A DNA stretch of 42,146 nucleotides, from the NCBI GenBank assembly GCA_030750765.1, contig JASMHM010000004.1:67835-109980 (forward strand), written 5' to 3'. The position numbers were made by a program, and so were the translations under genes. Each line of letters starts with the position of its first letter. Position 1 is the first letter of the stretch. Of the stretch, positions 27,614 to 31,387 are shown piece by piece. This DNA is from Candidatus Woesearchaeota archaeon (GTDB taxonomy: Archaea; Nanobdellota; Nanobdellia; Woesearchaeales; ARS49). Under the pieces are notes generated by a model. The model made no database searches and was not told where the DNA came from. It saw nothing but the letters and a program-made list of their open reading frames with translations.

Positions 27614-28351
27614 ATGCGTCTGAGTATGTTAAGAGACCTAGGATTGTCCGACGGAGAGATCAAAATATATGGAGCTCTTCTAGACATTGGTCAGTCTCCC
27701 TTGAACAGGATTCATGAAAAGACAGGCATTGAAAGGAGAAATATCTATGACATTCTCAACAAGCTCATCGAAAGAGGTCTGGTGTCTTACGTCACCGAAA
27801 ACCGAAGACGGTTGTTCCAGCTTGCTAATCCTACCAAGCTGGTAGGGTATGTTGATGAGAAAATGTTAGATCTTGAGCGAACAAAGAAGGAAGTCCAGGC
27901 AATGGTGCCAGAAATTACCAAAAAGTTCAACGCTGAAAAGCCAGAAATCGATGCAGAACTGTTCACCAGCGAGGACGGTGTTAAAGCAGTATGGGAGGCG
28001 TGCCTGGAGCACAAGAAGATTTATTTCATTGCCGCAGGAAGGTACTGGCCTATCAACAAGCCACACTACTTCGCAAGCTGGATGAGGCGAAGGCTAGCAA
28101 AGAAAATACCCTTGCACATTCTCTTACGCCAGGAAAACATTAAGGATTTCAAGCCATTCCCTATGGAAAAAGCTCGTTTTTTACCTAAAGCGTTTAGCGG
28201 CCATCCGAACGTGATCTTCGTGTATGGGGATAACGTTGCTAACGTGATGTTACATGACCAACCTTTCGCTTTTGTTATTCGAAACAAGCAAATAGCAGAG
28301 AATTACATAAAATATTTTGATTTCTTATGGAAGCAGTCTACCGAACCGTGA
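27614..28351 (+). CDS. TrmB-family transcriptional regulator
   Basis: 245 aa. The winged helix is at 1-75 (LRDLGLSDGEIKIYGALLDI, RRNIYDILNKLIERGLVSYV), then a helical linker (DEKMLDLERTKKEVQAMVPE) and a C-terminal effector domain. An upstream in-frame ATG at 27563 precedes the TATA box (ATTTATATAC, about 27583-27592), so the ATG at 27614 is used. It resembles the regulator at 14397-15128 in layout. The nearest candidate target is the divergent beta-rich secreted-protein operon. Its 3' end overlaps the convergent lipoprotein gene by 14 bp. Confidence 0.85.
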   Translation: MRLSMLRDLGLSDGEIKIYGALLDIGQSPLNRIHEKTGIERRNIYDILNKLIERGLVSYVTENRRRLFQLANPTKLVGYVDEKMLDLERTKKEVQAMVPEITKKFNAEKPEIDAELFTSEDGVKAVWEACLEHKKIYFIAAGRYWPINKPHYFASWMRRRLAKKIPLHILLRQENIKDFKPFPMEKARFLPKAFSGHPNVIFVYGDNVANVMLHDQPFAFVIRNKQIAENYIKYFDFLWKQSTEP

Positions 28352-29285
28352 GCTTGCCCATCAATCGATTTTCTTTACCGACACAAGTGTTCCTGCATCG
28401 TAGCTCAAATGTACCTTTCTTGTCAGCAGTGAAGGTCATGGTGTTAGACTGGCGAGGTTGCAAGTCTACATGGAGGTCATACCCTTCAAGGTCAATGCCG
28501 TATACTTCATCGAAGCTGGTGAAGTAGAGTTGTACGTACTGGCCCTCTCGTGCGGTTAACTTTACCGGACTCATGCGGTGAGAAATGACTGTGATTTTGG
28601 TGATGCGTGGTCTTTCTCCAAGCGTGGTGGTTAATTTTTCTGTTAACACTTCAGGTTCGGGAACGGTCACGATTCCTAGCCGTATGTTCTCTCCGTCAAC
28701 GATGATTTTGCTGGTGCGAGGTATTGTTAGTCCAGGTCCGGTGACGCCGTGCTCGTTCATTCCTATCTTCAACACTTCTCCTCTTGATCCGGTGGTGCTG
28801 ATTTGTCTGCTGCTTTGCAACGTCACTTTAGCGTTGGAGATTTCATACACTCGGAACACTGGAGCAAACACTAATCGGTTAGCTTCAAACGTGCTCTCGT
28901 GTTTTAGGAGTTCCAAAACTATTACTGTGTCTTCTTGATTGCGTATGGTGAAGGGGTGGACAATCTTTACCGTTCGTGAGGGCATGACTGCTTTTCGCCC
29001 TGCGACCAACACCTCACCAAACTCTATGTTTAATGTGTTGAGTATTTGTGGTTCGCCTCGGAGCGTTCCTAACAGCGTAGGTTGGACTGCGTTATAAGTG
29101 ATAGGAACATCTTCAACAAGAATGTTATCAAGGGTTATCTTGTTGATCTCTACTGAAACGTTTTCTGGTGATTGCAACACGACGTGCACGTTTCCTTCTG
29201 GAACTATGGGTGCGGGAGTGCCGTAATCCACCACTTCGGGTGCAGCACAAGCCACCAATAACAATAACAGTAAAGCGCGTTTCAC
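28338..29285 (-). CDS. Lipoprotein with degenerate C-terminal cupredoxin domain
   Basis: 315 aa. MKRALLLLLLVACAAPEV has a lipobox with Cys13. Residues 30-225 are beta-rich and unassigned. Residues about 230-315 have the cupredoxin layout of CuA/nitrous-oxide-reductase-like domains: REGQYVQLYFTSFDEVYGID, then FTADKKGTFELRCRNTCVGK and a final RLMGKL. The first Cu ligand His is Tyr (VYG), the C-x3-C pair is kept, and the usual Glu and second His are Asn and Glu; a Met remains. It may bind another metal or none. It has its own TATA GTTTATAAAC (29306-29315), which overlaps the lgt stop. Confidence 0.75.
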   Translation of the reverse strand: MKRALLLLLLVACAAPEVVDYGTPAPIVPEGNVHVVLQSPENVSVEINKITLDNILVEDVPITYNAVQPTLLGTLRGEPQILNTLNIEFGEVLVAGRKAVMPSRTVKIVHPFTIRNQEDTVIVLELLKHESTFEANRLVFAPVFRVYEISNAKVTLQSSRQISTTGSRGEVLKIGMNEHGVTGPGLTIPRTSKIIVDGENIRLGIVTVPEPEVLTEKLTTTLGERPRITKITVISHRMSPVKLTAREGQYVQLYFTSFDEVYGIDLEGYDLHVDLQPRQSNTMTFTADKKGTFELRCRNTCVGKENRLMGKLTVR

Positions 29286-29307: not shown

Positions 29308-30048
29308 TTATAAACGTTTGCGGTAGATGTATAGTCCTGCTAGGAAGACAGGAATCGTGAGCCACTGCCCCATGGTCAGGGGTCCGATCATGCCTAATTG
29401 TACATCTGGCTGGCGGACAAACTCTACCAAGAATCGGAAGACGCTGTACAGCATCATGAAAATGGCGAGCTTATGGTTTTTGGTGCGTAACAACACCAAG
29501 AAGATGAACAAGTTGTATCCTACTTCGTACAGTTGTGAAGGGTGTCTCGCCCCTTCCACTCCTGGAAAGAAGACTGCCCACGCAACATCAGAAACACGCC
29601 CATACAATTCTCCATTGATGAAGTTGCCCATCCTTCCTAGTGCTTGTGCCAAGCTTAACGGTACGACTACTACGTGGGCTAACTTCCAAAAATTGATCTC
29701 GTACTTTTTGCACACCCACCATACTGCAAGGATAACGCCCACCAACCCTCCGTGGAAACTTAACCCGCCTTGCCACACCGCAAAAATCTTCAACGGATTC
29801 GTAAGGTAGAACGACAGATTGTAGAAGAGAACGTAGAAAAGTCTAGCACCAACAACGATTGACACCGTCAACCATAACATGATGTCTTCAATTTGTTTAA
29901 CAGTAAGATCGAGCTCGCCATCCTTGACCGCTTTCTTCAAGAAGTACTGAACTAAGAAGAAGGCGATGACCCACATCACGCCATACCATCGTATCTGGAA
30001 GAATCCAAGATTCAGCGCTACAGGGTCAAGCGCGTGCGTCCATGCCAT
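29308..30048 (-). CDS. lgt: Prolipoprotein diacylglyceryl transferase
   Basis: 246 aa, seven membrane helices. GGLSFHGGLVG (H99, counterpart of E. coli H103), GRMGNFINGELYGR (R139, counterpart of R143), RHPSQLYE and the late R-F-x-x-E-F-x-R segment are the bacterial Lgt signature and active-site residues. It transfers diacylglyceryl to the lipobox cysteine at the outer membrane face. Bacterial-type Lgt is rare in archaea. Three lipobox proteins in this window (13239, 21164, 28338) are obvious substrates. It is downstream of a 6-TM protein and a microprotein in one operon. No lspA is visible here. Confidence 0.93.
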   Translation of the reverse strand: MAWTHALDPVALNLGFFQIRWYGVMWVIAFFLVQYFLKKAVKDGELDLTVKQIEDIMLWLTVSIVVGARLFYVLFYNLSFYLTNPLKIFAVWQGGLSFHGGLVGVILAVWWVCKKYEINFWKLAHVVVVPLSLAQALGRMGNFINGELYGRVSDVAWAVFFPGVEGARHPSQLYEVGYNLFIFLVLLRTKNHKLAIFMMLYSVFRFLVEFVRQPDVQLGMIGPLTMGQWLTIPVFLAGLYIYRKRL

Positions 30049-30055
30049 ACACGTG

Positions 30056-30766
30056 TTAGGAGGACAGTCGTATAAAAGCTATACGGTGCCAGCTCAATAA
30101 GGCTAGTACCAACGGAATACCAAACACGAGATAGTACGGCATGGGCAGCAATCGTAGGATGAACCGAACGTTCAAACCCACCACGCCAATAACGATGGCA
30201 GCACGACCCCACGACTTCCAATGCTTCCATGATTGATGTTTTCCATGAGCAAATGCAGCATACGCAAACGCTACTAACACGATGATGATGGCCCAGTGTG
30301 CCCACGCAAACACGTTGGTTAGGGATTGTTTGGCGACCTGCTCAAGAATATGGTGGCGTAGGCTGAAGTATTCATTCGCAACGTACGTGATACAGTATAC
30401 TATATAGTACGGTGCCAGGAGTTTGGTGAACTGCTTGACATATGCAATACTGCTTGCTTTGCCAGTCATGCCCTTTGCCAGCCACCATGCGAGGCCTTGG
30501 CCTAGTGCGCTTAGCACAAAGACTGCGATGGCTAGCACGAGATATACGATAATGGCCTGCCCTACATACTGTGATCCAAGCACGGTGACGTGCTGGTTAG
30601 ACATGTCCTGATAGATGAGAATTGCGTACTCAACCAGTTTGTCTGTTAAGGGCTTGGTCAAAAATCCTAGGATGAATAAGAAAGCGAGATCCACGAGCAT
30701 GCTAACTAGGAACAATGGCTGCCAGATGTCTTGCACGCTCTTCACTGCGGTATTGATCCACTTCAT
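30056..30766 (-). CDS. Integral membrane protein, six TM helices, unknown function
   Basis: 236 aa with no recognised family. Hydrophobic segments include PLFLVSMLVDLAFLFILGFL, AIIVYLVLAIAVFVLSALGQ, LLAPYYIVYCITYVANEY, WAIIIVLVAFAYAAF, IVIGVVGLNVRFILRLL and YLVFGIPLVLALL. Its ATG overlaps the stop of the 34-aa microprotein (ATGA) and it ends 7 bp before lgt. The operon places it with lipoprotein biogenesis, but a direct link is inferred. DUF-type archaeal permease-like proteins are an alternative. Confidence 0.7.
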   Translation of the reverse strand: MKWINTAVKSVQDIWQPLFLVSMLVDLAFLFILGFLTKPLTDKLVEYAILIYQDMSNQHVTVLGSQYVGQAIIVYLVLAIAVFVLSALGQGLAWWLAKGMTGKASSIAYVKQFTKLLAPYYIVYCITYVANEYFSLRHHILEQVAKQSLTNVFAWAHWAIIIVLVAFAYAAFAHGKHQSWKHWKSWGRAAIVIGVVGLNVRFILRLLPMPYYLVFGIPLVLALLSWHRIAFIRLSS

Positions 30767-30867
30767 GGTACGGGTGTGGGGAATATTGCATCTATGTTAG
30801 AAACGATCAATGCTAGAATAATAATAAGAATAAAAAGAAGAATAACAAAAAAAAGATCTTTGTTCAT
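30763..30867 (-). CDS. 34-aa single-TM microprotein
   Basis: 35 codons including the stop. The start ATG (30867-30865) overlaps the upstream gene's TGA and its own TGA (30765-30763) overlaps the next ATG, ATGA at both ends. MNKD is followed by a 19-residue hydrophobic helix (LFFVILLFILIIILALIV) and a short tail with PTPVP. The two precise junctions make it very unlikely to be noise. Type I or II topology is undecided. Possibly a subunit or regulator of the 6-TM protein or Lgt. Too short for usual callers. Confidence 0.75.
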   Translation of the reverse strand: MNKDLFFVILLFILIIILALIVSNIDAIFPTPVP

Positions 30868-31142
30868 CCTGCACGCGTTGTGCCGACAATCTCGTTGGAT
30901 GCTTGGGCACTGTTGATTCTTGCTTGTGTCACAGTGTCGTCGTATGCATACCGAACAGGCGCGGTTCCTTCTCGCACGTTTCCGCCGTCTTGGACCATGA
31001 AATCGCTCGATACTATCTTTCTCTCTGCGAATTGTCCTGTGGCCATGCCTCCGCGGAACAACAACACCAAGCCTACAATGGCCATGATGGCTACTATTCC
31101 TAGGATCACATACGCTACTGCGGCAGTTTCTTTGTTTTTCAT
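30864..31142 (-). CDS. Small single-TM protein, 92 aa
   Basis: The ATG at 31142 follows GAGGTGG, a good Shine-Dalgarno; upstream codons to 31205 are not needed. TATA TTTTTATAC at about 31178-31186 implies a short leader of about 20 nt. KNKETAAVAYVILGIVAIMA and IVGLVLLF form one helix near the N-terminus, with RGGMATGQF after it. The remaining 55 residues are polar (VSSDFMVQDGGNVREGTAPV). First gene of the microprotein/6-TM/lgt operon. Function unknown. Confidence 0.7.
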   Translation of the reverse strand: MKNKETAAVAYVILGIVAIMAIVGLVLLFRGGMATGQFAERKIVSSDFMVQDGGNVREGTAPVRYAYDDTVTQARINSAQASNEIVGTTRAG

Positions 31143-31240
31143 TATACCACCTCTAACTTCAAACGGCAGCCTTCCGGTATAAAAATGTTTGGTTCTTGAG
31201 CGCAATAATGCTTAAATATCCCTTACTCTTATTCAGTCGT

Positions 31241-31387
31241 ATGAAGAGCGTGTTTCGGTGTTCGAGCTGTAACTGGCGTTTCCATAGTGGTCACACGCCT
31301 CGCCTATGTCCTTATTGTGGCAAGGAAGATACAATAGTCGCTGCTTCAGTACATAGTGCTGATGATTTGATTAGCGACGTTGAGTGA
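31241..31387 (+). CDS. Small zinc-ribbon protein, 48 aa
   Basis: CSSC and CPYC (C7, C10, C23, C26) form a classic zinc ribbon: VFRCSSCNWRFHSGHTPRLC then PYCGKEDTI. The start is ATG 31241; TATA CTTAAATATC (about 31211-31220) is 21-30 bp upstream, so the ATG at 31196 is not used. Function unknown; DNA or RNA binding is the usual use. It overlaps the convergent HTH gene by 17 bp. Confidence 0.75.
   Translation: MKSVFRCSSCNWRFHSGHTPRLCPYCGKEDTIVAASVHSADDLISDVE

Follow-up and report, generated by a model that had tools for sequence, protein, structure and literature searches.

What is the function of a membrane protein of only 34 residues whose gene is locked, by short overlaps at both ends, between its neighbours in an operon that also encodes the prolipoprotein diacylglyceryl transferase (Lgt)? 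The frame in question lies in a stretch of 42,146 nucleotides (here called the window) from a Candidatus Woesearchaeota genome of 1.14 Mb in 16 contigs, and it is of a size that annotation would easily miss. It belongs to a minus-strand run of five genes encoding a 92-aa protein with one transmembrane (TM) helix, the 34-aa microprotein, a protein with six TM helices (6-TM protein), Lgt, and a lipoprotein with a cupredoxin domain (Table 1). Possible relatives of the 92-aa protein at the same place in three genomes (G005, G007 and G020) have a cysteine-bearing C-terminal part, and the window copy has no cysteine. A small zinc-ribbon-like frame with two CxxC pairs (31196-31387, plus strand) points away from the operon and gave only weak Pfam matches.

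Table 1. Features of the operon that contains the microprotein gene, with their positions in the window.
Feature	Positions	Strand	Remarks
92-aa single-TM protein upstream of the microprotein, overlapping its start	30864..31142	-	Conserved in some family members
ATGA overlap, stop of the 92-aa ORF and start of the microprotein	30864..30867	-	Identical in G001
34-aa microprotein	30763..30867	-	ATG...TGA; MNKDLFFVILLFILIIILALIVSNIDAIFPTPVP; ATG at 30867-30865
ATGA overlap, stop of the microprotein and start of the 6-TM gene	30763..30766	-	Kept at 4 nt in 12 of the 14 microprotein-bearing family genomes, and also in G221
6-TM protein, presumed partner of the microprotein	30056..30766	-	AF2 model with pLDDT 94; no Pfam, NCBIfam or PDB relative
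Lgt, prolipoprotein diacylglyceryl transferase	29308..30048	-	PF01790, E 2.2e-73
Predicted lipoprotein with cupredoxin-like domain, downstream of lgt	28338..29285	-	PF13473, E 1.3e-6; MKRALLLLLLVAC, lipobox (LLVAC) read from sequence

The microprotein consists of a short N-terminus (MNKD), one TM helix and the tail NIDAIFPTPVP, which is probably extracytoplasmic. The initial annotation had already described the MNKD start, the single helix, the PTPVP tail and the two ATGA overlaps beside the 6-TM and Lgt genes, and all of these are read directly from the DNA (30867..30763, minus strand). The 34 residues of the window copy include neither a cysteine nor a CxxC active site; the microprotein family has no match at a meaningful score in Pfam or NCBIfam, and no thioredoxin match was obtained for its members in either database. 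A genome of the same genus (G001) retains the frame with 94% amino acid identity (81% for the 6-TM protein) and with identical geometry, both ATGA overlaps being kept, and the frame is therefore not a mere product of chance. It differs between the two genomes by six synonymous and two nonsynonymous changes (dN/dS 0.087), and the other reading frames at this place contain stops or show no such substitution pattern; judged from these substitutions, the microprotein frame is under purifying selection.

Conservation of the tiny frame between conserved neighbours had been named beforehand as the observation on which its reality should turn, and the frame was indeed found to be conserved. From a sample of 26 genomes of the family, lgt comes after a complete 6-TM gene in 21, and in 14 of these (G000, G001, G003, G005, G007, G009, G011, G013, G014, G015, G018, G019, G020 and G023) the microprotein is encoded directly upstream of the 6-TM gene; the exceptions to the overlapping junction are G007, where the two genes abut, and G019, where a gap of ~28 nt separates them. 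Identity to the window copy drops to 32% across the family, while the pattern MxKxD, one TM helix, N-[LI]-D-x-x-F-P-T-P persists, many members adding a short tail such as VQEAIKQAVNAT. The microprotein is not indispensable, since 7 of the 21 genomes with the 6-TM/Lgt pair have no recognisable copy: the slot is occupied by a different one-TM frame of 37-44 aa in G008 and G021 and by an unrelated-looking one-TM frame of 52 aa in G002, and no small frame was found in the slot in G004, G006, G012 and G017. A phylum-wide search yielded no convincing case outside the order, and none was found beside the 6-TM paralogs located elsewhere in the genomes.

For the 6-TM protein, AF2 predicts with high confidence a short N-terminal helix followed by six long helices. 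No family was detected for it in Pfam or NCBIfam at a meaningful score, and comparison of the model with the PDB gave nothing significant, the best match being CysZ (E 0.51; TM-scores to CysZ up to 0.41). A DsbB-like clue in its cysteines was dropped, as the homologs contain 0-7 cysteines per protein and their alignment has no conserved cysteine column. In many genomes the 6-TM family has a second, distant member (G000:C9:191098-191790; L042-L049) that is accompanied by neither microprotein nor Lgt and often has an unrelated long ORF before it. Frames resembling glutaredoxin (CPYC, CPWC or CPFC) occur close to 6-TM homologs or immediately downstream of them (L184 in G304, L160 in G050 and L015 in G006), which is another redox link. 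At the G233 and G234 loci a further membrane-protein gene, apparently related to the 6-TM gene, lies directly downstream of it.

A profile was built solely from the microproteins of the family, 13 of which were known at that point, and used to scan 353 genomes of the order. Its top three matches outside the family (G244, E 2e-8; G243, E 8e-7; G305, E 1e-6) are the N-termini of DsbA-like Thioredoxin_4 proteins of ~210 aa, each encoded directly upstream of a 6-TM homolog; the one in G244 reads MNKDNFFFILALLGILMLIALVLNIDKLFPLPT... and then CPYC. Ten DsbA-like proteins occupy this slot among the 6-TM homologs of the order (G050, G092, G226, G233, G234, G243, G244, G305, G307 and G310; hereafter slot DsbAs), and most of their genes end a few bases inside the 6-TM gene. 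When the microproteins and the slot DsbAs were compared profile to profile, they matched at 96.4% (E 1.4e-9) over the anchor and the FP-P motif, compared with 1.5% for a neighbouring one-TM family used as control. Nine of the ten slot anchors are matched by the microprotein profile at 11.8-33.5 bits (the exception is G307), whereas none of 14 non-slot Thioredoxin_4 proteins (13 encoded in the slot genomes, the last in G005, a member of the window's family) is recognised, all scoring ≤5.3 bits or going unreported (Mann-Whitney p 1.4e-4, with two unreported non-slot scores set to -5). The anchor sequence therefore goes with the 6-TM neighbour rather than with the thioredoxin domain, and it is mainly because of this contrast that the helix and tail are thought to form a docking element for the 6-TM protein, of which the microprotein would be the docking element alone. 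By profile similarity, the microprotein helix and the membrane anchor of the slot DsbAs are homologs, with the caveat that the shared match covers one TM helix and ~10 residues and that short TM segments converge easily. The microprotein has the properties of the anchor element in both sequence and position, i.e., a TM helix with N-x-D-x-x-F-P-x-P and a gene directly upstream of the 6-TM gene that overlaps its start. No Thioredoxin_4 protein was found in 8 of the 14 microprotein-bearing genomes of the family, the window's included, so the helix has been retained there without such a domain to anchor. The corresponding figure for the other family genomes with the 6-TM/Lgt pair is at most 1 of 7; this association of the microprotein with a lack of Thioredoxin_4 within the family is suggestive only.

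We propose, with moderate confidence, that the microprotein is a free-standing anchor subunit of a complex with the 6-TM protein at its core, i.e., the anchor element of the slot DsbAs kept alone, oriented N-in/C-out and packed on the 6-TM protein, with a role as a lipidation accessory being the likeliest. In the window lineage the thioredoxin domain would be absent and the anchor alone retained, because the helix itself, according to this proposal, is what the 6-TM protein needs. Through ATGA coupling the microprotein would be translated just before the 6-TM protein, insert with its N-terminus inside and pack against its partner, so that coupled translation would yield the 6-TM scaffold together with a single anchor helix bound to it. 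The topology is predicted from the fused DsbA-like domain of the homologs: a DsbA domain should face outward, so the anchor would be N-in/C-out with its FPTP tail on the outer face of the membrane, where Lgt acts. The ends of the microprotein and of the 6-TM protein that a read-through fusion would join should then be on opposite sides of the membrane, and folding the two as such a fusion was therefore discarded. Since the 6-TM protein and its anchor share an operon with Lgt in this family and in a few other families, the likeliest role of the pair would be that of a membrane scaffold or substrate-presenting accessory in lipidation, and in the window lineage the pair may serve Lgt in lipidating lipobox cysteines. 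In the DsbA-bearing lineages the same scaffold would bring a thiol oxidoreductase to the substrates, and these versions could also keep the lipobox cysteine reduced. The suggestion in the initial annotation that the frame encodes a real, co-translated membrane microprotein acting as a subunit or regulator is strengthened by its conservation and low dN/dS, and is sharpened here to a putative partner of the 6-TM protein with apparent homology to a DsbA anchor.

G092 and G221 form the cleanest pair in which this slot has the thioredoxin domain in one genome and lacks it in the other. The gene order in G092 is lgt, anchored DsbA and 6-TM, with ~4-base overlaps at both junctions; the order in G221, a member of another family, is lgt, a 40-aa microprotein (MKISKDVFTLAICLVILLLILLFSMLIGYVFPYPAALPTP) and 6-TM, with an ATGA onto the likely 6-TM start, and the 6-TM proteins of the two genomes are sisters (support 94/87). 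Such pairs could also have arisen by fusion rather than fission, in which case the microprotein would be the older subunit of the 6-TM protein and the DsbA domain would have been fused to it elsewhere; the mechanism in the window would be unchanged and only its history would differ. The two states are interleaved on the 6-TM tree with at least four changes, and the deep branches are weak, with support too low to give the direction. Loss is favoured over fusion because slot DsbAs occur in six of the order's families (f26, f31, f41, f58, f63 and f81) and microproteins in two. Also against fusion, the slot DsbA-like proteins L177 (G233) and L183 (G234) have a CxxS active site in place of CxxC, as though the domain were decaying, and the longer microproteins stop in their short tail at the place where a DsbA linker would go on. 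We regard fusion as unlikely, though deserving of consideration, and the anchor was probably made free-standing by loss of the thioredoxin domain. A broader generalization is put forward tentatively, at somewhat less than even odds: the docking helix of a DsbA-like oxidoreductase may have become an independent subunit repeatedly, on at least two separate occasions (once in the family of the window and once in that of G221), after loss of the catalytic domain, and the stripped 6-TM/anchor pair, which in both lineages sits in a bacterial-type Lgt operon, may be an archaeal accessory module of lipidation.

The window's genome contains both Lgt and LspA, and its Lgt is 91% identical to that of the MAG ARS49. 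The cupredoxin-domain lipoprotein encoded next to lgt is a likely substrate of the enzyme, and a similar lipoprotein is found 3' of lgt in several relatives. As Lgt shares the operon throughout the family and in G221, the microprotein could be a direct regulator or subunit of Lgt with the 6-TM protein as a bystander. The distribution of the genes makes this highly improbable: lgt lies on another contig in G243 and G307 and is unlisted in G305 (79% complete), and in all three the anchor is still beside the 6-TM gene, while Lgt itself was found in 311 of the 353 genomes of the order, mostly without microprotein or 6-TM protein. Because anchor/6-TM pairs occur without adjoining Lgt, the constant partner of the anchor is the 6-TM protein rather than Lgt, and Lgt was rejected as primary partner. 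LspA was found in 57 relatives. That a bacterial pathway for lipoproteins is nearly universal in an archaeal order deserves a look of its own. Single genomes of the order (G304, G050 and G084) have 4-6 Lgt matches.

The ATGA overlaps at both ends could also mean that the frame merely carries ribosomes onto the 6-TM start, its peptide having no function. Synonymous sites of the microprotein are unusually conserved, with a dS of 0.30 between G000 and G001 compared with 1.5-1.6 for the 6-TM and lgt genes, and the nucleotides may therefore matter too; the first codons of the gene are identical to those in G001 and mostly T-ending, and the low dS may reflect constraint on RNA or on the U-rich codons of the TM helix. 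Apart from regulatory codons, the amino acid sequence of a leader or attenuator peptide should be unconstrained, whereas that of the microprotein, with its low dN/dS, retains TM length and the N-x-D-x-x-F-P-T-P motif across divergent genomes, and its homolog is a protein segment within the fused DsbAs, so that we consider a purely coupling function highly improbable. A decaying dsbA remnant, or a generic signal-anchor that resembles TM anchors by chance, would agree with the short hydrophobic frame and with the 8 of 14 genomes in which Thioredoxin_4 was not found, but it can be given hardly any credence in view of the dN/dS value, the frame and motif intact in 14 genomes, and the unrelated anchors of the same genomes that the profile does not match.

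One-TM accessory subunits are an already known kind of protein. The proposed 6-TM complex is undescribed, and both the microprotein and the 6-TM protein are without a known-family match. Literature searches combining Woesearchaeota with lipoprotein/Lgt or DsbA, and DPANN with lipoprotein enzymes, returned nothing on a detached-anchor family, and we know of no description of a detached DsbA-anchor microprotein family whose enzyme-bearing form still occupies the equivalent position in relatives. The origin of a microprotein can seldom be traced; in this case one slot holds the same helix with or without a catalytic domain, depending on which of the related lineages is considered, which suggests that the anchor alone still has a job. 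That the helix sequence tracks the membrane partner and not the enzyme domain leads to a direct and testable claim: rather than simply tethering a domain, a TM anchor is a subunit for specific docking.

Compared with known systems, the microprotein is closest in sequence motif and position to the membrane-anchored DsbA-like oxidoreductases (PF13462 Thioredoxin_4 / PF01323 DSBA) of the slot, which have the same motif in their N-terminal TM anchor, are encoded at the same place and usually overlap the downstream 6-TM homolog by the same short stretch; unlike them it has no thioredoxin domain or cysteine and consists of the anchor only. CydX, AcrZ and KdpF are single-TM accessory subunits of membrane complexes. 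CcoM, described as a 36-aa subunit (PMC10433244), is a further example. On genomic grounds the microprotein resembles all four in having fewer than ~50 aa and one TM helix and in being encoded and conserved with its partner, but its presumed partner is an undescribed 6-TM protein, its origin is tied to a DsbA anchor, and no sequence relation to them is expected. The bacterial lipoprotein pathway (Lgt, PF01790; LspA, PF01252) has both its enzymes in the window's genome, with a lipobox protein beside lgt; the differences are the archaeal host and the addition of the 6-TM protein and the microprotein to the operon, neither of which is known from bacterial lgt operons to our knowledge. Lipidation of lipobox proteins in archaea is also the process served by AliA and AliB, the lipoprotein lipidation proteins of Haloferax volcanii (PMC12186497), whereas the window encodes a bacterial-type Lgt.
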